This document shows, in pieces, positions 995 to 19,319 of a stretch of 33,523 nt of DNA. A model generated the notes under the pieces. It was not told the DNA's origin. It was given only the letters and a program-made list of their open reading frames with translations, and ran no database searches. Positions within the stretch are counted from its first letter, which is position 1; each line of letters begins with the position of its first letter. The DNA comes from Desulforegula conservatrix Mb1Pa (GTDB taxonomy: Bacteria > Desulfobacterota > Desulfobacteria > Desulfobacterales > Desulforegulaceae): assembly GCF_000426225.1 (NCBI RefSeq), contig NZ_AUEY01000043.1:1-33523 (forward strand), read 5' to 3'. The translations under genes were made by a program, and so were the position numbers.

Positions 995-1669
995 ATGTCA
1001 TCAAGCATAAGCAGTCTCTCAAGCGTACTTCAGTCCCAGTATGCCAGATCAGTCAGCAGTGTTTCAAGTATGGTGAATAATAGCGGGTCTTCTGACTCGT
1101 CAGGCACTGTTTCGGGAGTTGATACCGGCGCGACATCGTTCATTTCTGCACTTGAATCGGCACTTGCCCAGATAGGTGTCACTGCCACATCCGATTCCAG
1201 CAGCACCAGCTCATCTTCGGATGAGGATCTCCAGCAGAATCTGGATGCATTCATGAAGAGCCTTTTTGAGGCAATGAGGGAACAAAACGGAGTGTCTGAA
1301 TCAGGTTCAAGTGAACAGTCAGGAATGCAGCCGCCGCCGCCTCCTCCTGAAGGCAGCGCTCCTCCTCCACCGCCTCCGTATGGGAAGTCTGAATCAGGAG
1401 GCATGCAAAAGGATCTCCAGAGTCTTATAAGCCAGTTGTCTTCATCTTCTGACACGTCTGATTCGTCAACAACCGATTCAACAGAAACTACATCAGATGA
1501 TTCTGTCACAAAGCTCCAGGAAACATTCCAGAATCTTTTAAAGTCAATGGGCGCTTCATCTGAAACCGCAGGTACTGATCAGGCTTCCTTGCTCGGCTTT
1601 CTGAAGACTCTTTCACAGAATCTTCAGAATACAAGTTCTGTCGGAACCATAATTGACGTTCCTTCCTGA
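995..1669 (+). CDS. Ser-rich, poly-Pro low-complexity protein of unknown function
   Basis: This encodes a 224-residue protein. Start ATG 995 follows a strong AGGAGAAGG site (984-992); the upstream in-frame ATG 923 has none. I do not recognise a named family. About 59 of 224 residues are Ser, in runs such as SDSSSTSSSSDED. There are two proline blocks (PPPPPPEGSAPPPPPP) near residues 110-127. Two short amphipathic segments, LQQNLDAFMKSLFEAM and KLQETFQNLLKSMG, resemble each other and may be a diverged repeat. There is no signal peptide or membrane helix. The protein is acidic. It lies 324 bp upstream of a CotH-type kinase gene. Known CotH kinases phosphorylate Ser-rich spore-coat proteins, so it is a plausible kinase substrate; that role is inference. 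Confidence 0.6.
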   Translation: MSSSISSLSSVLQSQYARSVSSVSSMVNNSGSSDSSGTVSGVDTGATSFISALESALAQIGVTATSDSSSTSSSSDEDLQQNLDAFMKSLFEAMREQNGVSESGSSEQSGMQPPPPPPEGSAPPPPPPYGKSESGGMQKDLQSLISQLSSSSDTSDSSTTDSTETTSDDSVTKLQETFQNLLKSMGASSETAGTDQASLLGFLKTLSQNLQNTSSVGTIIDVPS

Positions 1670-1688
1670 TTGATTCTCTGTTGCAGGG

Positions 1689-1721
1689 ATTAAGGGCGTT
1701 GTTTTTGAAGGCTCCCTTAAT
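1689..1721 (+). terminator. possible terminator after the Ser-rich gene
   Basis: ATTAAGGG (1689-1696) and CCCTTAAT (1714-1721) can form an 8-bp stem with a 17-nt loop, 20 bp past the stop codon. The following bases are T-rich but not a strict T tract, so termination strength is uncertain. Confidence 0.4.
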
Positions 1722-1779
1722 TTCCTGATTTTATTAATATGTAACTACTCAGTTAGATTTTTTAGGGATGGCTTTATTC

Positions 1780-1813
1780 TTGGAAAACCCTTTTTGTAAA
1801 AAGTGTTTTCCAA
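1780..1813. repeat. T5/A5 hairpin repeat, copy 1
   Basis: The left arm 1780-1795 and right arm 1798-1813 pair over 16 bp with one mismatch and a 2-nt loop (TTGGAAAAC..CTTTTT / AAAAAG..GTTTTCCAA). A close relative at 9243-9272 has the same architecture. Located between two same-strand genes, it could act as a terminator or be a dispersed palindrome. Confidence 0.55.
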
Positions 1814-1882
1814 ACCTTTCCCAAAAATTTTTTATGATATTTTTAAGCAAGTTCTGCTCTACGGGGACTCATGCAAAAAATC

Positions 1883-1966
1883 CAAAACCTGAAGTTTTTT
1901 GCCAAGCTTTTTTTCAAAAAAGCGCCCTTTTAAAAGTTTGAATTTCATAGTTGGTGAATAGTTACA
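1883..1966. repeat. 84-bp dispersed repeat, copy A
   Basis: This segment begins CAAAACCTGAAGTTTTTTGC and ends GGTGAATAGTTACA. It matches 33162-33245 in the same orientation over its whole length with only scattered differences. It contains the internal hairpin GCTTTTTTTCAAAAAAGC. It lies directly upstream of the CotH gene, so it may also contribute to that gene's leader. No coding potential is visible. Confidence 0.65.
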
Positions 1967-1993
1967 TTAATATTTATAAAGGATGCTCTATCT

Positions 1994-3664
1994 ATGGGTT
2001 TTAAAGGAAAAATTATTCCGGTTTTATTTCTGGCTTTGCTTGCAGTCTGGTTTGTGTCCGGATGTAACAGCAGTAGCACCAGCAGCAGCGATACAGACAC
2101 AAAAGACGCCTCATCCGACGAAGATGAAGTGGTTAGGCCAGAAGGCTGGACTGCTAAAACCCATGGGAATAAAGCCGATCCTGATTATTCTGTGGTTTTT
2201 CCTGACAATGCTGTTGGTCGCATAGATATCACGATATCCGCGACTGACTGGCAGGCAATGATGACTGATGAAAATCTTGTGTCTGCCTTCGGGGAATTCG
2301 GCTCAAAGGCCGGAACTGGAACAGGAAATGGTACAGGGACGAGTCCTGGTGGCGCAGGAGTTCCACCTGCTTTGCCGGATGGCTCTAATCCACAGACTCC
2401 GGGAACGAGTCCTGGCGGAACCACTCCGCCTGCAATGCCTGAAGGCATGACTCCGCCTTCTGACGGTACTACTCCTGGCGGCACCACTGCTTCAAGCGGG
2501 ACTGGTCTTCCGGACGCAGGCGCAGCCCTTGAAATGTCGGAAAATCCTGAATGGAAACCATGCACATTTATGTGTAACGGGCTTACCTGGAATTATGTTG
2601 GAGTCCGCTTCAAGGGTAATTCCTCCCTTTCTTCGACTTGGAGCAAAGGCATTTACAAGCTCCCTCTGAGATTCGAATTCGATCAGTTTGAAGATGAGTA
2701 TCCAGCCATAAAAAATCAGCGTTTTTACGGATTCAAGACCCTGTCCATGTCGAGCGGTTACAATGACGACAGTCTGATCCGGGAAAAAGTTGCCGCAGAC
2801 ATATTCAGAAATCTTGGGGTTCCTTCTCCAAAGGCCGCATTTTACCGGGTCTATGTCGATTGCGGAGACGGCTCTGGATCGAAATACTTCGGTCTTTACA
2901 CAATGGTTGAAGTCCCTGACAAGCCAATGTTGAATGCTTATTTCGGGAATTCGGAAGGTAATCTTTACAAACCATCAGGTTCTACAGCTACCTTTGGATC
3001 AGGAGCTTTGTCAGAAGATGATTTTGACAAGGAAAACAATAAGGATGATGCAGACTACAGCGATGTCAATGCGCTTTACACTGCCGTAAATGACAGTTCA
3101 AGCGATGCCTCCACGTGGAAGAGCAATCTCGAAAAGGTCTTTGATGTAGATGGTTTCCTCAAATGGCTTGCCGTCAATACAGTAATCCAGAACTGGGATA
3201 CCTACGGAGTTATGGCTCATAATTATTATCTCTACAATAATGGCGGCAGACTGGCATGGATTCCCTGGGACAATAACGAGTCCCTGAAAGGATCTGATTC
3301 AGGCTTGGCAGGTGTCAATGCGATGGCGGGCGGAATGGGGTCGCGTACCCTTTCCCTGGAGCTTGATGAATCATCACTTGCAAGCTGGCCGCTGATAAGC
3401 CGCATCATAGCCCAGCCTGAATATCGCTCATTGTATGATTCCTATGTGGATAAGACGGTTACGGATTATTTCAATACATCGATCATGCAGCCCATATTCC
3501 TGAAGGCCCATGATCTGATTTCAGATTATGTGATCGGAGATGAAGGCGAAAAAGCAGGATACACTCTCCTCAGCAATGAGGCCGCTTTCCTGGGCAGCGT
3601 GGATTCACTGAACAGTCATGTTGTCAGCCGAACAGAAGCTGTCGGCGCATACCTCGGAAGATAA
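1994..3664 (+). CDS. CotH-kinase family lipoprotein
   Basis: This encodes a 556-residue protein. A signal peptide ends in the lipobox VSGC with Cys24, followed by a Ser/Asp-rich tether, so the protein should be a lipid-anchored envelope protein. A Gly/Thr/Pro-rich insertion lies at about residues 105-176. The CotH fold follows: VGVRFKGNSSLSSTWSKG, then YGFKTLSMSSGYNDDSLIRE, then KYFGLYTMVEVPDK, and NYYLYNNGGRLAWIPWDNNE containing the acidic metal-binding site. CotH proteins are atypical protein kinases; spore CotH phosphorylates Ser residues of coat proteins. ATG 1994 is preceded by AAGGA at 1978-1982, a slightly long spacing. The neighbours (Ser-rich protein upstream; export, VTC and DUF4956 genes downstream) suggest envelope or secreted-protein modification. 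The fold call is confident; the substrate is unknown. Confidence 0.85.
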   Translation: MGFKGKIIPVLFLALLAVWFVSGCNSSSTSSSDTDTKDASSDEDEVVRPEGWTAKTHGNKADPDYSVVFPDNAVGRIDITISATDWQAMMTDENLVSAFGEFGSKAGTGTGNGTGTSPGGAGVPPALPDGSNPQTPGTSPGGTTPPAMPEGMTPPSDGTTPGGTTASSGTGLPDAGAALEMSENPEWKPCTFMCNGLTWNYVGVRFKGNSSLSSTWSKGIYKLPLRFEFDQFEDEYPAIKNQRFYGFKTLSMSSGYNDDSLIREKVAADIFRNLGVPSPKAAFYRVYVDCGDGSGSKYFGLYTMVEVPDKPMLNAYFGNSEGNLYKPSGSTATFGSGALSEDDFDKENNKDDADYSDVNALYTAVNDSSSDASTWKSNLEKVFDVDGFLKWLAVNTVIQNWDTYGVMAHNYYLYNNGGRLAWIPWDNNESLKGSDSGLAGVNAMAGGMGSRTLSLELDESSLASWPLISRIIAQPEYRSLYDSYVDKTVTDYFNTSIMQPIFLKAHDLISDYVIGDEGEKAGYTLLSNEAAFLGSVDSLNSHVVSRTEAVGAYLGR

Positions 3665-3676
3665 GCAGTCATATAG

Positions 3677-3715
3677 AAGCATGGTGTTTCCGGTTTAAGG
3701 CTTTTCACCATGCTT
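3677..3715 (+). terminator. possible terminator after the CotH gene
   Basis: AAGCATGGTG (3677-3686) and CACCATGCTT (3706-3715) form a perfect 10-bp stem 13 bp after the stop codon. It lacks a clean T tract, so it could be a weak terminator or a processing hairpin. Confidence 0.45.
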
Positions 3716-3744
3716 TCAACAGGGAAACGAATTTTGACAAGGCA

Positions 3745-3858
3745 GCAAAAAGTCAGATTTTCGTCATTCCGGTGCAGGCCGGAATCCGGAAATAGCCGAA
3801 AACACTGGATGCCGGATCAGACCCGGCGTGACGCCATCGCCTTATTCTGATTTTTTGC
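3745..3858. repeat. long palindromic intergenic repeat, CGTCATTCCGG family, copy 1
   Basis: Outer arms GCAAAAAGTCAGA (3745-3757) and TCTGATTTTTTGC (3846-3858) pair with one mismatch. Inside, CGTCA (3762-3766) pairs with TGACG (3829-3833) and TTCCGG pairs with CCGGAA. A second member with the same outer and inner motifs lies at 12026-12161. It has the form of a BIME-like or MITE-like element without coding capacity. Confidence 0.65.
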
Positions 3859-3906
3859 GAGTCCCTCAATTTTGTGACCGGCAAATTTTAAACTGGAGTT
3901 ATTAAA

Positions 3907-5898
3907 GTGAATAAAACAGCAAAAGGAAACTGGCCTCTTTATAGTGCGTGGCTCGTGGTTTTAGTTATAACCATCGCTATTTCCTTTGTTTATCATCAGG
4001 AGAGTACAAGCTTTTCAGGAATAGCCGAAACCCGTGAGATCGTTGTTAATTCGGAATCTCCTGTGGATATCAGGCGGATCAATGTCACAGAAGGGCAGAC
4101 GGTTGAAAAGGGAACTCTTCTTGTTGAACTGAGCAGCCCCGAACTTGTGCTCAAGATCAATCATCTCGAGCACCAGCTTGATGAATTGAAAGCCCAGAAA
4201 GGCGTTGACAAGACAGAACTCCAGTCCCGAATCCGCCAGCTCCAGGCTGAAAAGACGGCAAAGGAAAATGAGATCACGAGTCAGATAACAGAGCTTGAGA
4301 ACGAATATAACATAAACAGGAAGTTGATTTCAGATCTTAAGAGCGTGCCTGTGGGCAGCGATGGTGATGTGAGTGATGACAATAACCCAATAAGGCTGAA
4401 AATAAGGAATCTGAAAAAAGAACTCAGCCTGTCCGTGAATTCCCTTGTCGTGCAGATAGAGCTTCTTCAGAAAACCCTGGATTATTCGAATGCTCCGGTC
4501 GAAATCCAGGTTGAAAGGCTTGAAAAAGAACTCGTTCTACTGAAGAAAGAAAACAGCCAGCTAAATATTTACGCCCAGATTTCAGGAGTCATTGGCTCTG
4601 TCAATTTCAAGCCCGGCGAAAAAGCCTCGCCTTTTGCGCCCATTCTTACCCTGCATGCCAAAACGCCGTCATTCATCAAGGGATATATCTATGAAAATGC
4701 CTACGCAAAGATAAAAATGGGCGACAAGGTGGATGTTGCTTCATGCAATGAATCAGGTTGCAGAATCCCGGGGCAGGTTGTGGGTGTTGGCGCGCGCATC
4801 GTGGAATATCCTGTCAGGCTCAGGAAGCATCCTGATTTTCAGGTATGGGGCAGGGAGGTCGTAATAAAGATCCCTGAAAACAACCCTTTCATACTCGGTG
4901 AAAAAGTTTCGATTACTTCACAGAGAAACAAGGGCATAGCTCTAAGGGTGAAAAATATGTTCTCTCCTGATGAGAGCAGGGCAGAATCCCCGGATCAGGG
5001 TTTGGGGTCACAGAAGTCGGAGTTTCTAAGAATTGACAAGAAAGCTATTGAGGCTTCCGGGATTATGTATCTCAAGGATCTTCAGAAATATCTCGTTATT
5101 AGCGATGACACCAAGGACGACAAACCTCTTGTGTGCCTTGTGGATTCAAATGGCAAAGTATCAGATGAAATGCTCATCGAAGGGGCTGACGAGATTGAGG
5201 ACATGGAGTCCATAGCAGAAGCTGATAATGGGATTCTTTATATTGCCTCGTCATCAAGTGCCAATAAAAAGGGCAAGATAAAGGAAAAACGTTCGAGGCT
5301 CTTGTCTGTTCGCAGGGATCAGTCAAGCTTTTCCCTTTTGAGGGAAGTGGATCTGTATTCAGGCCTGAAAAACTGTGCCGAGAGAAACAGAGGCAAGGAA
5401 TGGGCTGATTTTATCCTTAGTGGCATAACAGAAGAGTCCGCCAAAGACTTCATTGATATAGAAGGCATGTTTTACAAAAACGGCTCTTTATTCCTTGGTT
5501 TCAAGGCCCCGCTCGCTGGCGGCCAGTCCGTTATCCTTAGAATTGCAGATATAGACGCTTTCATGCATACGGGCGCACTCGGCGACGATCAGGTGTCAAT
5601 CTGGAAGAAAATTATTCTCCAGTGCGAAGACGGAAGCTTCCAGGAGAGAATATCCGATCTCTGCTATATCGGTGACACCCTTTATATAACCGGAACATCC
5701 TTGGAAAATGATGAAAGTAGCCGCTCAGGCAGCCTCTGGAGGCTTGACGAAATAACCGGAACCTCAACCAGATTGATGATTTTTAACAGCCGCGCGCCGG
5801 AAGGCATAAGCGCTGGCGAGGATTCTGATTCCATAGTCATATGTTTTGATGGCGGTTCAAAGGAAAAATCTGAAATCACAAGGATTCCAAGACCATGA
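3907..5898 (+). CDS. HlyD-type periplasmic adaptor fused to a DUF3616-like propeller
   Basis: This encodes a 663-residue protein with a GTG start supported by GGAG at 3895-3898. An uncleaved N-terminal membrane helix (residues about 12-30) anchors it in the inner membrane. A lipoyl half-motif follows (VDIRRINVTEGQTVEKGTLL), then a long coiled-coil hairpin (about 75-215), the second lipoyl half (AQISGVIGSVNFKPGEKA) and a beta-barrel ending near residue 340. These are the parts of an HlyD/membrane-fusion protein that bridges to a TolC-like channel. The last 300 residues are not part of normal adaptors. They carry DUF3616-like repeats (DMESIAEADNGILYIASSS, DIEGMFYKNGSLFLGFKA, ISDLCYIGDTLYITGTS), suggesting a beta-propeller in the periplasm. 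The downstream TolC-like gene is 89 bp away. The adaptor call is confident; the propeller assignment is moderate. Confidence 0.8.
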   Translation: MNKTAKGNWPLYSAWLVVLVITIAISFVYHQESTSFSGIAETREIVVNSESPVDIRRINVTEGQTVEKGTLLVELSSPELVLKINHLEHQLDELKAQKGVDKTELQSRIRQLQAEKTAKENEITSQITELENEYNINRKLISDLKSVPVGSDGDVSDDNNPIRLKIRNLKKELSLSVNSLVVQIELLQKTLDYSNAPVEIQVERLEKELVLLKKENSQLNIYAQISGVIGSVNFKPGEKASPFAPILTLHAKTPSFIKGYIYENAYAKIKMGDKVDVASCNESGCRIPGQVVGVGARIVEYPVRLRKHPDFQVWGREVVIKIPENNPFILGEKVSITSQRNKGIALRVKNMFSPDESRAESPDQGLGSQKSEFLRIDKKAIEASGIMYLKDLQKYLVISDDTKDDKPLVCLVDSNGKVSDEMLIEGADEIEDMESIAEADNGILYIASSSSANKKGKIKEKRSRLLSVRRDQSSFSLLREVDLYSGLKNCAERNRGKEWADFILSGITEESAKDFIDIEGMFYKNGSLFLGFKAPLAGGQSVILRIADIDAFMHTGALGDDQVSIWKKIILQCEDGSFQERISDLCYIGDTLYITGTSLENDESSRSGSLWRLDEITGTSTRLMIFNSRAPEGISAGEDSDSIVICFDGGSKEKSEITRIPRP

Positions 5899-5987
5899 GC
5901 TTTGCCTTGCATATCTGGGGTTCAAGAATTTTTGGAGCAATTATAATAAAAGACTCAACCCTAAAACACTGTTGTGAAGGTCATATA

Positions 5988-7262
5988 ATGAGAAAGAGTA
6001 ATATTTTATATCTTGTACTGTTTTTTATGCTGGCCCTGTCTTCCCCATCATATTCAGGGGAAGAAGGGGCTGGCTCTCTTTCCATGACAGCGTTCATAAG
6101 AACTTCCGAAGAAGATCATGTGGTCAAAAACCAGAAAGAAATCGCAGACTATCTTGATAATGCGGAAGGAAGCACTCCGTATCTGAACAGGGTAGAGCTG
6201 AGAACAGAGACCGATGAATTTGACATTGACAAGCAGAAATACGGAGTCCGTTTTTATCCGAAGGGCTGGGGTGAGACAAAATATTCGCGAATGCTTTCAG
6301 AGACGGCAAAGGCCTCGGGCAGAACCGAATATGAGGCAAGCTATCATGAAGCCCTGAAAAACAGATATCTGCTGGTTCTGGAATATCTTGAGACCGTCGA
6401 ACTCATCGGACTGAAGGAGAAGCTGGCCCTTGTATGCGAGGACAGAATCAAGGTCTTGAAAAAAAGAAGCGCAGGCAGCCTGTCATTTGACATAAGCGAC
6501 CTTGTTGAAGCCGAAGAACTGCTGACCCGGATCAGGCTGGAGCTTGTGGGGCTGGAAAACAAAAAAAACGGAACTCTTCACCAGATAAGTCTTGCAGCTG
6601 ATTCAAAGGCAGAAGTCAATTTTTCCAGTGAGCCGCTTGTCAGGATAGACAGCGTTAAAAGAAGCGTGGCTGAGGCAAAGGACAGAAAAGACCTGGACAA
6701 TATCAACCTCAAGGACAGGAAGAACAAGGTCGATATGGCCCTGGACAAATACAATCTTGAACAGGCAAAAAGCAGGGATTATATCAGCTTTTTCGAGGTT
6801 GCCTATGACCACGGCAATTACGAGGATGAGGATAAGGCTTATTCCGTGGAAATAGGAGTGAAGCTTCCTTTTATCAATCCTGATCAGGATGAAATCACCA
6901 GAAAAAAAGTCGTATTTATGAAAGAGCGCCTTGCTTTTGAAGAGGAAAAAAGGGCTTTTTCGGAGAAAATTATTGCCTTGTCACGTTCAATAGATCGCCT
7001 GATCAGCCAGTATGAAATAATAGAGCAGAATAAGAAGTATGGAAACGCCCAGGAATCACTCGGCGCTTCTCTTAAAACGGGCGGCACAGACCCCCTGAAT
7101 ATTCTCAAAATAAAAGAGACCCTTCTTAAAAGCGATATCCATATGGTTCAGACTGGATATGAAATCAGAAACAGGTTCGTCGAGTTTCTTGATGTCTCCG
7201 GAAAGCTGTCTGAAAAGCCATTCAAAAATTATCTCGCCGAACAGAGGGAGGCCGTTAGATGA
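5988..7262 (+). CDS. TolC-like outer-membrane efflux/export protein
   Basis: This encodes a 424-residue protein. I start at ATG 5988 because it gives a clean signal peptide (RKSNILYLVLFFMLALSSPSYS) and has GAAGG at 5976-5980; the frame extends upstream to 5895 without such features. The mature part is mainly long charged heptad-like helices in two similar halves, typical of TolC/outer-membrane factors. Examples are the ETAKASGRTEYEASYHEALK region and the GVKLPFINPDQDEITRKKV turn before a helix. TolC proteins form a trimeric beta-barrel and periplasmic tunnel that docks to HlyD-type adaptors such as the one encoded upstream. Its stop overlaps the next start by four bases (ATGA), indicating translational coupling to the VTC gene. 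It is divergent within the family, so I am less sure of the substrate class. Confidence 0.7.
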   Translation: MRKSNILYLVLFFMLALSSPSYSGEEGAGSLSMTAFIRTSEEDHVVKNQKEIADYLDNAEGSTPYLNRVELRTETDEFDIDKQKYGVRFYPKGWGETKYSRMLSETAKASGRTEYEASYHEALKNRYLLVLEYLETVELIGLKEKLALVCEDRIKVLKKRSAGSLSFDISDLVEAEELLTRIRLELVGLENKKNGTLHQISLAADSKAEVNFSSEPLVRIDSVKRSVAEAKDRKDLDNINLKDRKNKVDMALDKYNLEQAKSRDYISFFEVAYDHGNYEDEDKAYSVEIGVKLPFINPDQDEITRKKVVFMKERLAFEEEKRAFSEKIIALSRSIDRLISQYEIIEQNKKYGNAQESLGASLKTGGTDPLNILKIKETLLKSDIHMVQTGYEIRNRFVEFLDVSGKLSEKPFKNYLAEQREAVR

Positions 7263-8071
7263 AACGTTTGCGCCAGAAAGTGATTCCGCCCCTTCTTGAG
7301 CGCTATGAACTCAAATATATTATACCTTACAGCCTGATTGACCCGATATCTGATTTTGTGTCGGCTTACTGTTCGCTCGATCTTTATTGCCTTAACTCTC
7401 CCAAAGGCTTTTATCGTATCAACAGTCTGTATCTTGATTCTCCAGATTGGCTGTTTCTAAGGATGCAGCTTGATGAAATGGATAATCGGATCGTAATGCG
7501 GGTTCGATCCTATGGCGATAGTCCACGCGTTCCTTACTTCTTGGAAATAAAACAGAAGACAGGGGATGTTGTGAGGAAATACAGATCAGCCGTGAAGGAT
7601 ATTAACTGGTTCAGAGCCTATACTGAGCCCGGTTTCTATCCTCGTGAAGTGACTAAGGATAGTTCTGAAAATATCAGCAGAGATCTTTTTGATCGTATGG
7701 TTTTTACGTATAACGCAGAGCCCAAAGTTCTTACCCAATATGCAAGAAAGGCATGGATAAGCAATGTGGACGATTATGCCCGAATTACATTTGATGTGGA
7801 ACAGAGGTTTAGGCCTGAAACAGATTACAGACCGGTTCCGGGTGCTAACCAGATGGTTTCTTGTGACCACTCTCTCGTTTTTGGCAATTATCCCGGATGC
7901 GATGTGATTCTGGAGGTTAAGTGCTATACTTCAAAGGTTCCTATGTGGATAATTGACATGATTCGGCGCTTTGGTCTTCAGCGGACAGGCTTTTCAAAAT
8001 ATCAGACAGGCGCTTTGGAGCTTTTGGGGCTTCATCGTTATGATCCGGCTTTTAGAAAGTCGATTTTATAA
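7259..8071 (+). CDS. VTC-domain protein (polyphosphate polymerase-like)
   Basis: This encodes a 270-residue protein without a signal peptide. The VTC catalytic domain, a CYTH-like tunnel fold, occupies nearly the whole length. The visible basic and acidic strand motifs are RYELKYIIP, SLYLDSPDWLFLR, IVMRVRSYG, YFLEIKQKTG, KYRSAV, LTQYARKAW, ITFDVEQRFRP and DVILEVKC, with a closing FSKYQTGALEL. Yeast Vtc4 uses this domain to make polyphosphate from ATP at a membrane. Bacterial homologues are usually annotated as polyphosphate polymerase domain proteins but are poorly studied. The start overlaps the TolC-like stop by four bases. It is followed at 137 bp by DUF4956, its frequent genomic partner. 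Cytoplasmic action on a nucleotide substrate is the likely role; the product is not established. Confidence 0.85.
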   Translation: MKRLRQKVIPPLLERYELKYIIPYSLIDPISDFVSAYCSLDLYCLNSPKGFYRINSLYLDSPDWLFLRMQLDEMDNRIVMRVRSYGDSPRVPYFLEIKQKTGDVVRKYRSAVKDINWFRAYTEPGFYPREVTKDSSENISRDLFDRMVFTYNAEPKVLTQYARKAWISNVDDYARITFDVEQRFRPETDYRPVPGANQMVSCDHSLVFGNYPGCDVILEVKCYTSKVPMWIIDMIRRFGLQRTGFSKYQTGALELLGLHRYDPAFRKSIL

Positions 8072-8098
8072 TAGTATGCTTTAGCTGATTATTGATGG

Positions 8099-8155
8099 TT
8101 GCTTTGAAAGAGCAAATCGCCACCGAGACGCAATCAGTTTCCTGACTACGGTGGC
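8099..8155 (+). promoter_or_regulatory. candidate structured 5' leader of the DUF4956 gene
   Basis: The intergenic RNA can fold into a hairpin TTGCT/AGCAA (8099-8115). A second stem follows, GCCACCG (8119-8125) with CGGTGGC (8149-8155). This second stem encloses an inner TCAG/CTGA stem and an asymmetric internal loop AGACGCAA/CTA. The GCAAA..GACGCAA spacing recalls core nucleotides of c-di-GMP-I (GEMM) riboswitches, but the standard P2 hairpin and receptor helices are not convincingly present. I therefore call it only a structured leader. It lies about 50 bp before the start codon. Confidence 0.3.
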
Positions 8156-8208
8156 ACATGTATCATGAATTTGTTTTAAATGAAATTTTTTTACGGAGGA
8201 TAATCAAT

Positions 8209-8895
8209 ATGCTGGATATGCTGGCTTTTCAAAGCTCGGCCCCTAATTCAGGGCTTTTGCCTATAATATATACGATTTTGCTGTCCTTTATGCTTTCTTC
8301 GGTCATAGGTGTCACATATATCAAAACATTCCGGGGCTTGTCCTACTCAAGGAATTATGTTCAGGCTGTGATTCTGATTGCCATTATTGCGGCAACAATT
8401 ATTCATGCCATCGGCGACAGCCTTGCGAGGGGGCTTGGGATGATGGGGGCGCTTGCAATAATAAGATTCAGAACCACTCTCAGAGATCCGCGGGATATAA
8501 TGTTTATATTTGCTTCGATTGCTGCAGGCATCGGATGCGGGGTCGGAACGTATAACGCAGCTATTTTCGGAACATTTGGGTTTATTATGACAGCTTTTTT
8601 ACTTTATTACAGTCAATTGGGATTGGCAAGCTCTTTTGACGGTATGTTGCGGTTTAATATTGAAAACACGGATGAAGGCAGGCATGAGCTGGAAAATCTC
8701 CTGAAAAAATATTGCAGGAATTTTGTGCTCATCACTTTGCGTGACATGCAGCAGGGAGAGCGTCTTGATTACGCTTATCATGTCAAACTCAGGAATACCG
8801 GAGAGAGCGCCGCGCTTGTGAAGGAACTGCCGGAAAAAATACCTTCTGTCAGGGGTGTAGGGCTTATGCTCCAGGAAAGCTCGGTCGAGCTTTAG
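8209..8895 (+). CDS. DUF4956 membrane protein
   Basis: This encodes a 228-residue protein. I chose ATG 8209 because CGGAGGA (8194-8200) lies eight bases upstream; an upstream in-frame ATG at 8158 has no such site. The N-terminal 140 residues carry about four membrane helices. They include the family signature GALAIIRFRTTLRDPRDIMF, a Gly-rich, Arg-containing stretch resembling MgtC-type proteins. The C-terminal 85 residues are soluble and look like a small alpha/beta sensor or regulatory domain. DUF4956 genes are commonly next to VTC-domain genes, as here, and a role as the membrane partner of the VTC enzyme is a reasonable inference. No transport activity is established. Confidence 0.85.
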   Translation: MLDMLAFQSSAPNSGLLPIIYTILLSFMLSSVIGVTYIKTFRGLSYSRNYVQAVILIAIIAATIIHAIGDSLARGLGMMGALAIIRFRTTLRDPRDIMFIFASIAAGIGCGVGTYNAAIFGTFGFIMTAFLLYYSQLGLASSFDGMLRFNIENTDEGRHELENLLKKYCRNFVLITLRDMQQGERLDYAYHVKLRNTGESAALVKELPEKIPSVRGVGLMLQESSVEL

Positions 8896-8970
8896 GTGGA
8901 TTTTGTTTGACAAGAAACAACAGTTCTTTGTCTTTCAGATAGGTTAATGCCGGATTTGATAACAAAAACA

Positions 8971-9053
8971 TTCTAAAAATATTGAAACAATTAAATATCA
9001 GGATCTGATCCGGTTATCCCTGGTCAGATAGTCAAGTGAAAGAACTTATGAAA
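8971..9053 (+). repeat. duplicated leader, copy A (upstream copy)
   Basis: This 83-bp segment is about 88% identical by eye to 9333-9416, which is the immediate leader and first codons of the beta-helix gene. It keeps the dyad ATCTGATCCGG (9003-9013) / CCTGGTCAGAT (9019-9029) and an ATG at 9048. That ATG begins a 24-codon frame ending at TAA 9120-9122 whose product (MKGYLLFRCGSYSCEITIKY..) resembles nothing I know. It is probably a duplication remnant. The rest of the 8896-9410 gap holds only this repeat, a T5/A5 hairpin and AT-rich DNA. Confidence 0.7.
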
Positions 9054-9242
9054 GGCTATCTTCTATTTAGGTGTGGAAGTTATTCCTGTGAAATAACTAT
9101 CAAATATTACGGCTTAAAATAACTCCGGCGGGTCGCTTTTTAAAAAAGCTCCGCAAAAATTTTTAGGTAAGCAAGCAGTGCATATACAACAATTAGGATC
9201 TTTGTGCATGATAATAACAAAAACATAAAGTTTTTGAGGGGT

Positions 9243-9272
9243 TTGGGGAACTTTTTACAAAAAGTTCCCCAA
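9243..9272. repeat. T5/A5 hairpin repeat, copy 2
   Basis: TTGGGGAACTTTTT (9243-9256) and AAAAAGTTCCCCAA (9259-9272) form a perfect 14-bp stem with a 2-nt loop. It is the same design as 1780-1813. A smaller GCTTTTTaAAAAAGC palindrome lies just upstream near 9136-9150. It may serve as a bidirectional terminator. Confidence 0.6.
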
Positions 9273-9332
9273 TATTCAGAATCACAAAAAGGTTTAGTAT
9301 CTCGCTTTTCAACATCTAAGGGGAGCATAGCC

Positions 9333-9416
9333 TTCTAAAAATATTGGAACAATTAAATATCGGGATCTGATCCGGTTATTCCAGGTCAGATAATCAAGGG
9401 GAAAGAATTTATGAAA
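9333..9416 (+). promoter_or_regulatory. leader of the beta-helix gene with conserved dyad (copy B)
   Basis: The dyad ATCTGATCCGG (9365-9375) / CCAGGTCAGAT (9381-9391) can form an 11-position stem with one mismatch and one G-T wobble. It ends just ahead of the ribosome site AAGGGG (9396-9401). Both arms are conserved in the second copy at 8971-9053, while bases around them differ. It could be an operator or an RNA hairpin controlling translation. Confidence 0.45.
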
Positions 9417-11792
9417 AAGAGATTGGCCTTATTTTTGTTTTTCATGCTGGCGCCAGCATTTTTATTAACAGGTCAGTGCATTGCATCAGAAACCATTGCA
9501 ATTTCAGGAGTCGATATTTCACCGTCAAGGATGCCTGTCCAGCCGGGCGATTCCGTGTCAGTGACAGTCAATGCCGCATCATCAAGCAATTCCCCTGTTT
9601 ATTACAAATTCTATTATTGTGGAAACTACGGAAGCGCCGAATACGCAAATTCTACATGGGTGACTGTTCAGGAATATTCCACAAATAACACATGCAATTA
9701 TTCTTTCCCTGATTCCGGCGCATATGTTGTTGTCGTAAGAGCTGTCACAGATCCTGTAAACGAGCCGTCAGCCCTTCCGATCGTTGGGGGTGTGGTCGCG
9801 GTCGGAGGTGGAACTGATACCGTCAACATATCATCATTCGCTTCAACGGCTACTCCGTCACTTAAAGCAGGCGAATCAGTTACCCTGGCTCTAAATGCTT
9901 TCACTACCGGAGGTAACCAGGTTTCATACAAATTCTACTACTGTGCCAATTATGGAACGGCAGATTACGAAACAAGTGTCTGGACTGCGGTTCAGGAGTA
10001 TTCTCCGGTCAATTATTCAAGCTACACTTTTCCGGACGCAGGCAATTATATCGTGGTCGCAAGGGCGGTGACAGATCCTTCAAATGAACCTGCAGCTCTG
10101 CCTATTTTTGGCGGACTTATATCGGTTAATCCATCATCTGCCCAGGGCGGATCGGATGCCCTGGCCGAAGAAATTCTTAAAAGTTCAAGTATTACTAAAA
10201 TAAAACTGAACGGAAGTTCCATAAGTGTAGAAGGAACAGGGGCGACTGTTTCCGGGAACAAGGTCACGATAACATCGGGCAGATCATACTATATCAGCGG
10301 GACGCTTTCAGACGGCCAGATAATAGTGGATTCTTCAGATTCGGCAACTGTCGGGCTTGTATTAAACGGCGCCGACATTACCTGTTCGTCAGGTTCTCCT
10401 ATATATGTGAAAAATTCCGCAAAAACAGTGATGGTGCTTGCTGAAAACACCCTGAACAAGATCACTGACGGGGTTTCATACATATTCGAAGATGTTTCCT
10501 CTGATGAGCCAAATGCCGCGGTTTTCAGCAAGGATGAGCTTTTTGTATGCGGCTACGGTACTCTAAACATCAACGGGCAATATAATGACGGAATAGCGAG
10601 CAAGGACGGGCTGACTTTTTCGGGCGGAACCATCAATGTCACATCCGTGGATGACGGAATAAGGGGCAAGGATTTTGTCGCTGTCAAAGGTGGCAGTATA
10701 ACGGTCAATGCCAAGGGAGACGGCTTCAAATCCGACAATTCTGAGGATACGACAAAGGGATTCATTTCAGTTGAATCAGGTGTGATAAACGTGACCGCAG
10801 GAGGTGACGCGTTAGATGCCGAAACAACCGTAACAGTGGCTGACGGAACTCTGAACATATCGTCAGGTGGTGGCAGCGGAAGCGTTATAACCTCAGACCT
10901 TTCTGCCAAGGGCATCAAGGGGAATTCAGGCATTACAATCGGCGGAGGAAATATTTCCATAAATTCTGCGGACGATGCCATCCATTCCAACGGAACCGTG
11001 ACTGTGAACGACGGAACTCTCTCGATCAGCACAGGAGATGACGCGGTTCATGCAGATACTTCAATCGTTGTTAACGGAGGAATCATTTCGGTTTTAAAGT
11101 CTTATGAAGGTATTGAGAGCGCTTTGATAACCATTAACAACGGTAACATACACATAGTCGCAAGTGATGACGGCATAAATGGAGCAGGCGGCAATGACGG
11201 CTCAGGAACCATCGCCGGCCCGGGGATAATGCCGATGCCCGGAGGTGGGCGTCCTGGCCAGGATAGCTTCGCATCCGCAAGCACTTTCGGTCTGTATATA
11301 AACGGAGGCTATGTGTCTGTTGATGCCATGGGTGACGGCATAGACATAAATGGTTATATAGAAATGACAAATGGCGTCGTGCTTGTAAATGGCCCCACCA
11401 ACAATGGCAATGGCCCGCTTGATTATGATTCATATTTTAAAATGACAGGCGGTTTTCTTGTGGCAACCGGAAGTTCAGGCATGGCAATGGCTCCAAGCAC
11501 AAACTCGACCCAGAACTCCGTTCTTGTAAATCTGAGTTCTGCAAAATCGGCCGGAACCATTATTCATGTCAGGGACAGCGCAGGCAGGGAGCTTCTTACA
11601 TTTGCTCCTTCGAAAACATATCAGTCGCTTGCATTCTCGTCTCCTCAGCTTGTGAGCGGAACATACGAGATCTACCTTGGCGGAAGTTCCACAGGCACCC
11701 TTGAGGATTCTCTTTATACAGAAGGAGTTTATACTCCAGGAACAAGATATGCCGGCTTTACTGTCTCAAGTATCGTTACATCTGTAAGATAG
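9411..11792 (+). CDS. secreted beta-helix carbohydrate-binding-type protein (Cthe_2159-like)
   Basis: This encodes a 793-residue protein with a Sec signal peptide (residues 1 to about 26). Two tandem homologous modules follow (about 31-133 and 138-240). Each contains YYKFYYC-N-YG, W..VQEYS, FPD.G.Y.VV.RAVTDP.NEP and ALPI.GG, and each has a Cys pair or single Cys at matching positions. From about residue 255 the sequence is a long run of short strands with recurring DDGI, ADDAIHSNG, GDDAVHAD, SDDGINGAGG and GDGIDINGYI motifs. These are Ca-binding-looking Asp/Gly turns of a right-handed beta-helix, as in Cthe_2159, a clostridial cell-surface polygalacturonate binder. A Gly/Pro/Met-rich loop lies near residue 605. 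Downstream of VTC and DUF4956, it is probably the surface or secreted product of the cluster. The binding target is unknown. Confidence 0.8.
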   Translation: MKKRLALFLFFMLAPAFLLTGQCIASETIAISGVDISPSRMPVQPGDSVSVTVNAASSSNSPVYYKFYYCGNYGSAEYANSTWVTVQEYSTNNTCNYSFPDSGAYVVVVRAVTDPVNEPSALPIVGGVVAVGGGTDTVNISSFASTATPSLKAGESVTLALNAFTTGGNQVSYKFYYCANYGTADYETSVWTAVQEYSPVNYSSYTFPDAGNYIVVARAVTDPSNEPAALPIFGGLISVNPSSAQGGSDALAEEILKSSSITKIKLNGSSISVEGTGATVSGNKVTITSGRSYYISGTLSDGQIIVDSSDSATVGLVLNGADITCSSGSPIYVKNSAKTVMVLAENTLNKITDGVSYIFEDVSSDEPNAAVFSKDELFVCGYGTLNINGQYNDGIASKDGLTFSGGTINVTSVDDGIRGKDFVAVKGGSITVNAKGDGFKSDNSEDTTKGFISVESGVINVTAGGDALDAETTVTVADGTLNISSGGGSGSVITSDLSAKGIKGNSGITIGGGNISINSADDAIHSNGTVTVNDGTLSISTGDDAVHADTSIVVNGGIISVLKSYEGIESALITINNGNIHIVASDDGINGAGGNDGSGTIAGPGIMPMPGGGRPGQDSFASASTFGLYINGGYVSVDAMGDGIDINGYIEMTNGVVLVNGPTNNGNGPLDYDSYFKMTGGFLVATGSSGMAMAPSTNSTQNSVLVNLSSAKSAGTIIHVRDSAGRELLTFAPSKTYQSLAFSSPQLVSGTYEIYLGGSSTGTLEDSLYTEGVYTPGTRYAGFTVSSIVTSVR

Positions 11793-12314: not shown

Positions 12315-15300
12315 ATGAAAAGGCTCATCGGATTTTTTATATCTATTATTGCAGCCGTAACAGGCAGATTTTCCTGGACTGCGCCGCCCTGGATTACTTC
12401 CATAAATGGTTTCAGGAAAAATAAACCAGGAGCTTTTTATTCCTTGATGATCCTCTTTTTTTTGATCGTTTGCGGAAGTGTTAGCGGGTATATTTACTGG
12501 AAAAAGATGCCCAAACCTGATCTCATTGTTCTAAAAACAAGGCTTGCCGAAATAAAACCACCATCCGAGGAAATTATTGAGCCAGAGCCTTTGTATATTG
12601 ATTTCAGCAGGGAATCCTCAAAAGGCGGGCCTGCCCTTTCTGCTGCAAGGCTTGATCTCGCTGGGAAGCCCATAACATCTGGAATAGCAATCGAACCTGC
12701 ATTTGAGGGAGCATGGAGCTGGGAAGCGAGCGGCAGGACAATAAAATTTCAGCCTAAGAATAATTGGCCAGCTGCCAGAAAATTTACAGTCAGTATTTCT
12801 CCTGAAATCCTGGAGAAAAAGGCAAAGCTCAAGGAAAACAGAATTGATTTTGAAACCTCTAAATTCAAGGCCACATTTGAAGTTGCTCCCAAATTCTATA
12901 CTGATCCAAGGAACAGATCTGTTCATCAGGCAATTGCTACGGCTGTTTTTACCCATTTTGTCGAAGAAAAAAGCATACGTGAAGGCCTTTCGCTTAGTTT
13001 TCCTGACAAATCTGGCAAAAATGTTCCTGTGAATTATTCGCTTACAATCGATAAGACAGGGCGTAGAGCGCATATTCTTTCAGATCCTCTGAAAATAGGT
13101 GCTGAAGAGCAGTTCATGACAGTTAGTCTTGATAAGAGGCTTAAAACTTCCCAGGGCGGGGCAGGGCTATCTGAAGATCTTTCAGGGAAACTCAAAATCC
13201 CGGCTGTATCGACATTTTTCACGATAAACGAGATGAGGGCCACAATAATTCCTGATCTCAAGAAAGAGCCTGAACAGACAATCACCCTGGCTTTTTCAGA
13301 TTCCATAAAAAGAAAGACTCTGGACGGCAAAATCAAGGCGTGGCTTCTTCCTTTAAAAAATCCGGAAAACGAGGAAGAACACTGGACGAGCCAGAATGAG
13401 GTGACTCCGGCTCTTCTTGAAAAATCCGGCGATTTGCCTTTGAAACTTGCCGAAACCCTCGGTGAGTCTTCGGACAGATTCGGCCTCGTCTTTGACGCTC
13501 CTGAGGGCAGGGATATTTATGTAAAGATAGAGTCAGGAATAAAATCAGACAGCGGTTACGAGCTTTCAAAAAAATACGACGCAGTAATGAGAGCTCCTTC
13601 TTATCCGAAAGAGGCCAAAATTGTGGGCCAGGGCGGTTTTATGGCGTCATCCGGCAGCAAGACACTTTCGATCCAGGCAAGGGGAGTCGAGGCTGTGAAG
13701 GTTTTTGTAAGAAGACTTCTTCCCCAGCAGCTTCACCATCTTGTAACCCAGACATACGGCGATATAACAAATCCTTCTTTCCACAACTGGAATTTTTCAG
13801 AGGCCAATATCAGCGAAGGATTTGAAAAGGTCATTCCGCTTTCTCCAAAGGATTCCAAAACTCCGGTTTATACGAGTCTCAATCTTTCCGAATATATTGA
13901 TCCCAATGGCATTAAACCAGGAGTGTTTTTCATAGAAATAAAAGGCTGGGATACAGAAAACAATGCCCCTGTCACACAGTCTTATGATGATCAGTCTGAA
14001 TACAGCTCATACTCTGCGGCTGCTTCTGGTAATGCGAACAATGCCGCATCAGAAGAAGCATCAGGTGATGAGTCGTCAGACGGAAATGGAGAGGGCAGTG
14101 AAGAAGGCGAGTATGCAGAGGGGGAAGGCTATAATAGCAATAACAGCTATGCCAGAAGCTATCAGCCTTCTTTTGTGGACAAGCGCACGATAATAGTCAC
14201 AGACCTTGCAATTCTAATCAAGAACGGAGTCGATAAGGGCAGGGATATTTTTGTCGAATCTGTTTCATCCGGATCTCCAGCTAAAGATGTTGAAATTTCT
14301 GTTGTGGCAAAAAACGGGCAGGCTCTTCAGAGTGGAAGAACAGGAGAAGATGGACATGTGGTTTTTCCTGAACTTGGGGAGTCGTCAGATCCTGGACGTG
14401 AGGCGGCATTCTGCATGGTTAAAAAAGGTTCTGACATATCTTTTCTGCCTTTTAACAGAAGTCAGCGCCAGCTTGACATGTCCAGGTTCGATATCGGCGG
14501 CGTAAATACAGGTCTTCTCGACAAAAATCAGCTTAACGCCTTTGTTTTTACAGACAGAGGGATATACAGACCCGGAGAGACAGCCAATATCGCTTTTATG
14601 GTCAGATCCAAGGGGCTGGCAATTCCAGCCGGGATTCCTCTTCAGATACATATTTCCGGGCCCCAGGGCACTCTTTTGAAAAAGAATATTCAGGTTCCTG
14701 AAACCGGATTCTTTGATATAAATTTCCCTTCAAATCCAGCATCTGCAACAGGCGCACATCAGGCCGAGTTATTCATTCTATCTGAAAAAGGACAGACTGA
14801 TAGAATGATTGGTAGCGTTTCATTCAAAATAGAGGAATTCGAGCCTGACAGAATGAAAATGGCAAGTGTCCTGTCTGATAAAAATCCTGGCTGGGCTCTT
14901 CCTGAAAATCTGAGCGCAAATGTAACCCTGAAAAATCTTTTTGGTTCACCAGCCCAAAACAGAAAGGTTAAGGGAAAACTGATTCTGCAACCAACAGGAT
15001 TCAGTTTCGATAAATATCCCGGTTATGTTTTTACAGATCCTTTGACAGTGAAAGACAAGCCTTTAAAAGCGGTTATCCAGGAAATCGAGGAAAGCGTAAC
15101 TGACAGTAACGGCCAGACTGAAGTCAAGCTCGACCTCGGGAGATTCGAGAAGGGAACATACAGAATGACCCTTTCCCTGGAGGGTTTTGATGAAGGAGGG
15201 GGCAGGGGAGTCAAGGCTTTCAATACTTCACTCGTTTCTCCGATGAAAGTGATCGCTGGATTCAAGGCGGACGGAGATCTGGCATTTGTAAGGCAGGGTT

Positions 15301-18346: not shown

Positions 18347-18800
18347 ATGGAAAAACGCACACCACATTATAAACTGGTGGATATAAAAGCTGTGGTTGCT
18401 GATCCGGCAAGCAGGCCATTCACCATGACTGCCCTGCGTGGCGGCCTGGAACTCGGTCTTTTGGAAAAAGAGATGCGTCAGATTGTCATGGCTCTTTCAC
18501 GAAAAGATTTTTACAAGTCAATGACAACCAATGCGGACACCCATATATGGCAGGACGTTTATTACGGCAAAACCCAGGAGGAAGTTATTGTTTATGGGTA
18601 CCTCTAAAAATTAGAATTTTTGATGTGGTAGCAAGGAAGCGTTGCACGGAGAACCGGAGTTTATGCGGTATAAATGAGGATTCGAGTACGACGCTGACGC
18701 AGCTAACGCGCAAAAAGGCAATTTTTAGAGGTGGCCTGATCTCAAAATTACTGCATATGAAGATGGGCGGCCTCCTGTCATACAATTTAAGGCAAAATGA
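18347..18800 (+). pseudogene. mqsR: MqsR-family toxin gene interrupted by a MITE-like insertion
   Basis: The N-terminal 83 codons encode a clear MqsR: MEKRTPHYKL, then ALSRKDFYKSMTTN and IWQDVYY, all highly similar to E. coli MqsR, a translation-dependent mRNA interferase. After Tyr83 the frame runs into an inserted element and stops at 18605-18607. Beyond the element, bases 18738-18800 encode DLKITAYEDGRPPVIQFKAK and a stop, the expected MqsR C-terminal strand. Removing the insert restores a protein of about 103 residues, close to the usual 98. The truncated product would lack its last beta-strands and is probably inactive or unstable. Antitoxin mqsA follows at once. Confidence 0.88.
18596..18736. 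mobile_element. 141-bp MITE-like element inside mqsR
   Basis: The ends are 17-bp imperfect inverted repeats: GGGTACCTCTAAAAATT (18596-18612) and AATTTTTAGAGGTGGCC (18720-18736), matching at 15 positions. The interior has no gene. The boundaries come from restoring the toxin reading frame, so they are good to a base or two. No convincing target duplication is seen. Mobilisation by a full-length transposase elsewhere in the genome is the usual mechanism for such elements. Confidence 0.8.
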
Positions 18801-18808
18801 GGTGTATC

Positions 18809-19210
18809 ATGAAATGCCCGGTATGCGGCAATTCTGAAATGATTACAACAACAGTAAATGAGACTCTGTCTTTTGAGGGGCAATCGCTCACCCTCCATGA
18901 TATGAGGGGTGGATATTGTGCATCCTGCGGCGAAGGTATCTGGGACGAAAAAAGCTATCATCGCTACGTTGAAGCGCAGGCGGCTCTTGTCAGATCTGTG
19001 AAGGGGGATGCATGCTCTGATATTAGGCGTATTAGAAAAAAACTTAAGCTGACCCAGCAAGAAATTGCAGAAATATTCGGTGTCGGCAAGGTCGCATTTT
19101 CAAGATATGAGAGAGGTGAAACAAGGCCTCCAGCTCCTTTGATGAAATTGCTTAAACTTATAGAGAGGCATCCGGATCTTTTGGATGAAATGCAGGGAAT
19201 GTCTTTCTGA
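18809..19210 (+). CDS. mqsA: MqsA-family antitoxin, intact
   Basis: This encodes a 133-residue protein. ATG 18809 has GAGG at 18799-18802, overlapping the toxin stop. The N-terminal zinc domain shows CPVCG and CASCG pairs, as in MqsA. The C-terminal helix-turn-helix carries IRKKLKLTQQEIAEIFGVG and AFSRYERGETRP. The N-terminal domain binds MqsR and the C-terminal domain binds operator DNA, making the protein both antitoxin and repressor. No truncation is visible. With the toxin broken, it may persist as a stand-alone regulator or by neutralising another MqsR. E. coli MqsA is 131 residues, so the length fits. Confidence 0.93.
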   Translation: MKCPVCGNSEMITTTVNETLSFEGQSLTLHDMRGGYCASCGEGIWDEKSYHRYVEAQAALVRSVKGDACSDIRRIRKKLKLTQQEIAEIFGVGKVAFSRYERGETRPPAPLMKLLKLIERHPDLLDEMQGMSF

Positions 19211-19319
19211 TGAGAGGCAAAAGCATTATGGAAAATGATTTCAACGTGCAGTCGGTATCTCTTGTTGCAAAATGCCCCCTTTTTTGCTTTGTAGCCCCTT
19301 AATTTCTTGAGTGAAGAAT

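Follow-up and report, generated by a model that had tools for sequence, protein, structure and literature searches.

An HlyD- and TolC-linked VTC/DUF4956/CotH gene set in Desulforegula conservatrix and its possible role in polyphosphate export

Genes for a CotH-kinase lipoprotein, an HlyD-type adaptor, a TolC-like protein, a VTC-domain enzyme and a DUF4956 membrane protein lie together in a 33,523-base stretch of Desulforegula conservatrix Mb1Pa (hereafter the window), which is the whole of contig C43 of a 4.47 Mb draft genome. Across the genomes searched these genes show a genuine and specific association, as is well supported by the comparisons below, and the HlyD/TolC set is a new diderm version of a known, poorly understood cassette. 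Judging from sequences and structural models, we give an even chance to the interpretation that it encodes a trans-envelope system, which would be coupled to a polyphosphate synthase and would export through both membranes. The preliminary description of this DNA had listed seven same-strand genes of the following families, and open reading frame (ORF) calls, Pfam and, for the TolC-like protein, the predicted fold bear it out:

995..1669, + strand: Ser-rich, Pro-rich protein of 224 aa that Pfam does not match within E 0.01 (ORF opens at 923)
1994..3664, + strand: CotH-kinase lipoprotein (Pfam CotH; lipobox VSGC by eye)
3907..5898, + strand: periplasmic adaptor of the HlyD type with a fused, probable beta-propeller at the C-terminal end (Pfam)
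5988..7262, + strand: TolC-like outer-membrane factor (predicted fold; signal peptide by eye; ORF opens at 5895)
7259..8071, + strand: VTC-domain enzyme, predicted cytosolic polyphosphate polymerase (Pfam, Vtc4 residue alignment)
8209..8895, + strand: DUF4956, MgtC-like membrane protein (Pfam, model, hhalign; ORF opens at 8158)
9411..11792, + strand: secreted Cthe_2159-type beta-helix protein, an occasional partner (Pfam)

Loci for comparison (numbered L below, and genomes G) were sampled from the regions around most VTC matches in the host's order (291 genomes) and phylum (395 genomes), plus seven loci from named genomes reached by a search with the window VTC protein, and were annotated with profiles built in this analysis. 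The VTC family (PF09359) was found in 25 genomes of the order and in 13 of the phylum set, two of the latter being also in the order. HlyD, TolC-like and VTC genes occur together at 18 loci, namely the window and 17 others, 13 of them in the order, three elsewhere in the phylum (G330, G365 and G574) and one in an uncultured Thiotrichaceae bacterium (L002). The genes run in the order HlyD, TolC, VTC at 16 of these loci; L025 has HlyD, VTC, TolC, and at L028, near a contig end, one frame holds pieces of both HlyD and TolC. The 4-bp overlap of the TolC-like and VTC genes noticed in the preliminary description is present, and the same junction is found at 11 of the 18 loci. DUF4956 is encoded at 16 loci and CotH at 13 (weakly at L037, E 2e-6), and the loci without one or the other mostly reach a contig edge near the module (L028, L035, L036, L053 and L002), which L025 does not.

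Counts by genome across the order give a similar picture. The TolC-like family was detected in 14 of the 291 genomes, in all of them with VTC on the same contig and never as a solitary gene, with a profile (A3) that was built largely from the HlyD/TolC loci and favours them, although solitary close relatives would still be expected to show. DUF4956 is present in 23 genomes, 22 of which also have VTC; in the other (G067, no VTC match) the gene after DUF4956 is an HlyD gene that runs off the contig. The VTC genomes that lack DUF4956 (G115, G209 and G235) have their VTC genes on contigs of 4 to 8 kb. CotH was found in 23 genomes (22 over the cut-off), including 18 with VTC. Fisher tests, which ignore shared ancestry, gave P values of 8e-29 for VTC with DUF4956, 2e-17 for VTC with TolC, 7e-19 for VTC with CotH and 0.002 for VTC with Cthe_2159. 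Co-occurrence had been proposed in the preliminary description as one way to check its reading, which a lack of it would have refuted; VTC, DUF4956 and CotH are indeed strongly together, with HlyD and TolC-like genes joining them in one clade. Plasmid searches returned three distant VTC matches at E 1e-3 and no HlyD-propeller match at E 1e-10. PPK1 (PF02503) was matched in one of the 17 genomes with HlyD/TolC loci, incomplete genomes included, a count that has no baseline for the order and to which no weight is given.

In quickly searched trees, whose long-branch warnings concern mostly rows from other loci, one branch separates the VTC proteins of the HlyD/TolC loci (17 rows) from all others (SH-aLRT 100), and one branch likewise sets apart their DUF4956 proteins (15 rows, SH-aLRT 99); this pattern is consistent with a single origin of the HlyD/TolC association among the sampled rows. 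Alignments A2, A3 and A4 took in 17 of the 18 loci and A1 15 of 16, L032 (split VTC, long DUF4956 frame) being left out of A1 and A2 and the damaged L028 out of A3 and A4, and from other loci 24 of 32 VTC frames and 20 of 27 DUF4956 frames were used.

The cassette itself is known from Gram-positive bacteria. Genes for CotH, a polyphosphate polymerase and DUF4956 adjoin pelDEADAFG in streptococci, clostridia and bifidobacteria (PMC7112168). In Streptococcus intermedius, deletion of SIR_1592 or of SIR_1594 (CotH) leads to less Pel-dependent aggregation and altered Pel levels, and the SIR_1592 product, with four transmembrane segments and an ACT domain, is described as MgtC plus ACT (PMC12345266); we infer that SIR_1592 is the DUF4956 gene. 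The remark in the preliminary description that these recurrent neighbours are without an assigned function needs qualification in the light of those deletions, both of which cut Pel-dependent aggregation. In Clostridium perfringens, the NELoc-2 locus comprises VTC genes together with CotH and a membrane protein that bears the label tubulin/FtsZ (PMC2879425), and it is probably the same kind of cassette as the Pel-linked one, the protein with the tubulin/FtsZ label presumably being DUF4956.

In the analyses of the S. intermedius paper, CotH/VTC/DUF4956 synteny was not found outside the Pel locus (PMC12345266). The window is a counter-example to that statement, because no pel-type gene is listed among the window proteins scanned. 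Pfam scans of 21 window proteins, chosen from 39 ORFs that reach 100 aa or more, gave no pel-type family, genes upstream of the contig being out of sight (475 bp precede the first ORF scanned); the loci besides the window were not each tested for pel. The window resembles the Pel-linked cassette in having CotH, VTC and DUF4956 genes close together and differs from it in that HlyD and TolC-like genes sit between CotH and VTC and that pel-type genes are missing from the scans. Searches of the open-licence literature, preprints excluded, listed no paper that treats VTC in linkage with HlyD/TolC; for the broad searches this covers the top-ranked entries, and the result speaks weakly for the absence of such work.

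The VTC protein of the window matches PF09359 at E 6.9e-37 (127.7 bits against a cut-off of 23), and a profile of 41 VTC sequences matches yeast Vtc4 structures at E 3.6e-28. Its residues R81, R83 and E219 pair with R264, R266 and E426 of Vtc4 (a chain numbering offset of 3 was checked) and are invariant in all 41 sequences; replacing these three Vtc4 residues together yields a catalytically impaired yeast complex (PMC9911596). The window enzyme is, from its sequence, a probable cytosolic polyphosphate polymerase. In yeast, the polymerase and a membrane channel form one unit with a positively charged path and a basic entrance, and polyphosphate synthesis and translocation are coupled within this single complex (PMC9911596). 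The eukaryotic VTC complex (Vtc1/Vtc3/Vtc4) and the bacterial set share the catalytic domain family, the active-site residues and the pairing of a polymerase with a membrane component, whereas in the bacterial set DUF4956 stands in place of the Vtc membrane domain, Pfam lists no SPX domain, HlyD and TolC-like genes are added and the activity is a prediction.

The DUF4956 protein is assigned by Pfam at E 1.1e-13, over the cut-off, and its model (pLDDT 80.3, pTM 0.60) has five main helices followed by a C-terminal ACT-like domain. The best Foldseek match of this model is an ACT domain (E 9.6e-4), and two MgtC C-terminal domains follow (0.012 and 0.027). When compared by hhalign with an alignment of three MgtC proteins, the protein scored 94.1% (E 1.3e-7, 196 columns); two single MgtC sequences gave 92.6% and 15.0%, and the controls (reversed MgtC, LysE and DUF4405) 0.1-0.2%. 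No match to Pfam PF02308 (MgtC) was obtained, DUF4956 alone being listed at E up to 0.01; the PDB sequence search gave chance-level matches only, and VIA-align covered mainly residues 139-228, the ACT-like part, with MgtC not among the 50 matches listed. On the strength of profile and model comparisons we regard DUF4956 as MgtC-like: it shares with MgtC (PF02308) the five-helix plus ACT-like layout and the hhalign score, and differs from it in being another Pfam family with an invariant RFR motif and a linkage to VTC. R86 and R88 of this motif are invariant in all 35 sequences, with conserved basic residues after them, and by the positive-inside rule the face that carries these arginines would be cytosolic, the side on which the yeast channel likewise has its basic entrance (PMC9911596).

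For the TolC-like protein, assignment from Pfam alone was dropped in favour of the fold: the window protein matches OEP at E 0.0028, below the cut-off, and OEP was matched at E up to 0.01 in eight of 17 TolC-like rows and not in the other nine, while a PDB sequence search gave no match at E up to 0.1. The model (pLDDT 82.2, pTM 0.72) has two repeats, each with a strand pair between long helices, and Foldseek returned 43 matches with E up to 0.001, whose titles name TolC, OprM, CusC, SilC, VceC and their kin, six of the 43 being titled just membrane protein from Pseudomonas aeruginosa. The protein is thus predicted to fold as an outer-membrane factor. The adaptor matches HlyD_D23 (6.6e-12) and HlyD_3 (4.4e-9), both over the cut-off, and HlyD_D23 is matched in all 17 adaptor rows; its PDB sequence search gave a single weak match (0.016). 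The propeller that the preliminary description placed on this adaptor corresponds to a C-terminal part, which 10 of the 17 rows and 10 of the 18 loci have, and its naming as a propeller draws on weak Pfam matches (DUF3616 at E up to 0.01 in five of 17 rows, SdiA-regulated in one of 17). NCBIfam gave only sub-cut-off matches for the adaptor and none for CotH, the TolC-like protein, VTC or DUF4956.

The CotH lipoprotein is matched by PF08757 at E 1.4e-64 (219.1 bits, over the cut-off) and aligns with the spore coat protein H structure 5jd9 (E 2.8e-13). A motif QN[WF]D...HN...PWD occurs in 10 of the 15 CotH proteins at HlyD/TolC loci, that of the window among them, and is absent at L037, L038, L039, L053 (cut by the contig end) and L058. 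QNWD and PWD of the window protein align with QNFD and PWD of 5jd9, and the PWDYD of the spore protein is PWDNN here. The catalytic residues of spore CotH include D228 in B. subtilis.

From these predicted parts we favour, at even odds as stated above, the following mechanism. The cytosolic VTC enzyme would polymerise phosphate from ATP, the chain would cross the inner membrane via DUF4956, and the HlyD (or HlyD-propeller) and TolC-like proteins would prolong the path over the periplasm and the outer membrane; once outside, the product may be phosphorylated, bound or anchored by the CotH lipoprotein, joined in some genomes by a beta-helix protein. What the analysis shows is the gene set, its recurrence, the predicted folds and the conserved VTC active-site residues; polyphosphate as the product, DUF4956 as the conduit, the direction of export and the role given to CotH are proposals. 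The predicted compartments are the cytosol for VTC, the inner membrane for DUF4956 and HlyD, the periplasm for HlyD and the propeller and the outer membrane for the TolC-like protein, with the CotH lipoprotein and the beta-helix protein at the surface or in the periplasm. This reading is suggested by the synthesis-translocation coupling in yeast and by the fact that crude screens saw no pump near the loci. The co-occurrence of HlyD and TolC-like genes with VTC, DUF4956 and CotH fits the earlier proposal of a cassette adapted to a two-membrane envelope, and the system may, as was also proposed, make or attach a phosphorylated or polyphosphate-linked surface polymer or protein. Tripartite efflux and type 1 secretion systems likewise have an HlyD-type adaptor and a TolC-type outer-membrane factor; the present set differs from them in the often present probable propeller of the adaptor and in that the crude screen found no ABC, RND or MFS pump near the loci.

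Several observations weigh against this mechanism. The pump screen, which covered all six-frame ORFs at the 18 loci and found no ABC-motif ORF within 5 kb of the module (91 unassigned ORFs; 272 six-frame ORFs of at least 120 aa) and a single ORF with at least five hydrophobic segments (at L025, chloride channel (CLC)-like by eye), is crude, the window's own DUF4956 scoring just three segments, and had less than 5 kb on a side at nine of the 18 loci, so a distant genomic pump is possible. Eleven of the 25 VTC genomes of the order have no TolC-like gene, so VTC and DUF4956 also occur in its absence; CotH is absent from seven of the 25, and five CotH genomes have no VTC match. At L025, DUF4956 and CotH are missing from the locus and lie elsewhere in the genome. 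Not every copy of the set is intact: two frames make up the broken VTC gene at L032, and the HlyD and TolC genes at L028 are damaged or misassembled. Bacterial VTC proteins have a near-invariant glutamate, E17 (in RYELKY), where Vtc4 has a threonine and no counterpart glutamate, and this might favour hydrolysis. Enzyme activity of a bacterial VTC protein was not reported in the open-licence literature searched (no preprints). A channel is a role that we infer for DUF4956 from its sequence; the effects described for MgtC are on ATP synthase and the regulation of phosphate, and the S. intermedius mutant of SIR_1593, which has the polyphosphate polymerase domain, still aggregated (PMC12345266).

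Of the other explanations, an accessory role in exopolysaccharide formation survives best, and we regard it as unlikely. Here the role of VTC, DUF4956 and CotH would be to adjust phosphate metabolism or to alter a polysaccharide of the matrix, which HlyD and TolC would help to export or anchor. This agrees with the cassette's place beside pelDEADAFG in Gram-positives (PMC7112168) and with the effect of two of its genes on Pel aggregation (PMC12345266), and at VTC loci without TolC the module is adjoined by a glycosyltransferase gene (L040) or a polysaccharide-export gene (L042); glycosyltransferase genes also occur at L055 (beyond CotH) and L058 (about 4 kb beyond DUF4956). However, no pel-type or polysaccharide glycosyltransferase family was found among the 21 window proteins, whose sole transglycosylase is PBP1C-like, and none of the 10 neighbour proteins first scanned at HlyD/TolC loci matches a polysaccharide synthase, two of them having no match at all.

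Phosphate homeostasis without export, in which VTC would be a triphosphatase or make an internal polyphosphate store, DUF4956 would be an MgtC-like regulator and HlyD/TolC would serve another pump, appears improbable. The relationship of DUF4956 to MgtC, the triphosphate tunnel fold that VTC domains have in common with hydrolases and a weak match of the VTC profile to the inorganic triphosphatase 5a60 (E 0.73) are in its favour, but the TolC-like family is never found away from VTC in the 291 genomes, and its gene overlaps VTC by 4 bp at 11 loci. Slightly more doubtful again is protein secretion, with HlyD/TolC exporting a protein that lacks a signal peptide, for instance the Ser-rich one, CotH phosphorylating it, and VTC and DUF4956 supplying phosphate or energy. 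CotH of Bacillus subtilis phosphorylates Ser-rich repeats (PMC7821199), and the Ser-rich protein (35% Ser/Thr) has no signal peptide evident by eye; yet Ser-rich or EF-hand neighbours of this look are found at just two of the 18 loci (the window and L028), and there is no ABC-type ORF within the 5 kb screened. That the genes are unrelated same-strand neighbours is very improbable: wide gaps do flank CotH and the beta-helix gene, but the set is found again at 17 other loci, which carry different family codes and one of which is in Thiotrichaceae, which refutes this reading for HlyD, TolC-like, VTC, DUF4956 and CotH.

The Ser-rich and beta-helix genes, by contrast, are possibly unrelated neighbours. 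The preliminary description had counted the Ser-rich gene as part of the system, and we rejected it as a core part: a profile from the window protein found no relative among the loci stretches fetched, and the one lookalike, an EF-hand protein adjoining L028, resembles it by eye only. The Ser-rich protein is nonetheless a possible substrate of CotH. The beta-helix protein matches Cthe_2159 at 2.1e-92, over the cut-off. This family occurs in eight of the 291 genomes, four of which also have VTC, and only the window has both on one contig, a comparison in which draft assemblies may conceal neighbours; the earlier view of the beta-helix gene as a constant part was therefore abandoned. The statement that Cthe_2159-like genes neighbour VTC and DUF4956 elsewhere holds at L003, L008 and L062. 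Proteins that combine a CotH domain with a beta-helix region are encoded at L042 (9831-12419; CotH 1.1e-6, over the cut-off, beta-helix 1.8e-7) and at L046 (9159-11783; CotH 1.1e-4, just below the cut-off, beta-helix 0.0014, below), and these fusions hint that CotH and beta-helix proteins act together. Between VTC and DUF4956, L034 has a gene (1178-2284) whose product resembles a beta-helix protein (Pfam Beta_helix 1.5e-4, below the cut-off).

The probable starts of the Ser-rich (995), TolC-like (5988) and DUF4956 (8209) genes differ from those of the longest ORFs, as judged by start codons, the signal peptide and relatives, and a purine-rich stretch precedes the ATG at 995. Intergenic gaps of 324 bp (Ser-rich/CotH), 242 bp (CotH/HlyD) and 515 bp (DUF4956/beta-helix) are such that a shared transcript of all seven genes is at best possible. 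Promoter-like sites (22 against 20.0) and terminator-like sites (11 against 12.3) are not commoner in the window than in shuffles, and Rfam gave no match at gathering scores.

Other VTC loci show further arrangements. At the six Bacillota and Mycoplasmatota loci VTC adjoins DUF4956 without TolC, and L003 and L008 among them also have a Cthe_2159-type gene. Among the other VTC loci of the phylum, L059 (8927-11682) lacks a TolC-like gene but has a separate gene for a divergent HlyD-like protein directly after VTC and DUF4956, and the VTC of this locus lies outside the HlyD/TolC clade. In two genomes of the phylum, the gene that follows VTC and DUF4956 encodes a probable beta-barrel protein of 395 aa (L030, 6951-9654, OMP_b-brl 1.6e-5; L062, 7197-9906, OMP_b-brl 9.7e-5; both below the cut-off), which may be another outer-membrane partner of this pair. 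The HlyD-like and beta-barrel proteins are possibly independent answers to the second membrane. L064 has, after VTC and DUF4956, a gene (1865-2944) for a membrane-anchored product with a VTC-like stretch by eye and no Pfam match, and L054 (2227-3885) has a 552-aa frame with a tandem pair of VTC domains. A calcineurin-like phosphoesterase (weak purple acid phosphatase match) is encoded at L037 (3947-5164) between CotH and DUF4956, which fits the phosphate theme. The VTC genes at L056 and L061 each lie under an opposite-strand frame, as found with Pfam.

Downstream of the seven genes, the window encodes a bacterial alpha-2-macroglobulin with a CTEQ thioester motif (12315-18230) and a PBP1C-like transglycosylase/transpeptidase (19311-21704), which is a common pairing. 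It is split here by a toxin-antitoxin-like pair, MqsR-like (18347-18607; Pfam 1e-23, model positions 1-79 of 95) and MqsA-like (18797-19210; Pfam 2.8e-48). As for the host, whose order is presumably Desulfobacterales, dsrA was over the cut-off in all six genomes tested (its own and five relatives). Behind dsrA the host genome has a dsrB-like frame and a gene for DsrD (Pfam 9.8e-29), from which we presume the host to be a sulfate reducer; a 16S search of this genome gave no match.

A more specific version of the favoured export mechanism, which we put forward tentatively and hold to be unlikely as a whole, is that polymer synthesis, and not an ABC, RND or MFS pump, would drive export via VTC, the MgtC-like channel and HlyD/TolC, and that exported polyphosphate would feed phosphate to CotH, since an extracellular kinase has no obvious ATP source. 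If polyphosphate export of this kind is confirmed, some diderm bacteria would own a dedicated two-membrane polyphosphate exporter with a eukaryotic-type polymerase domain, an HlyD/TolC conduit would serve a polymer synthase instead of a pump, and the recurrent CotH/VTC/DUF4956 cassette would gain a testable function.

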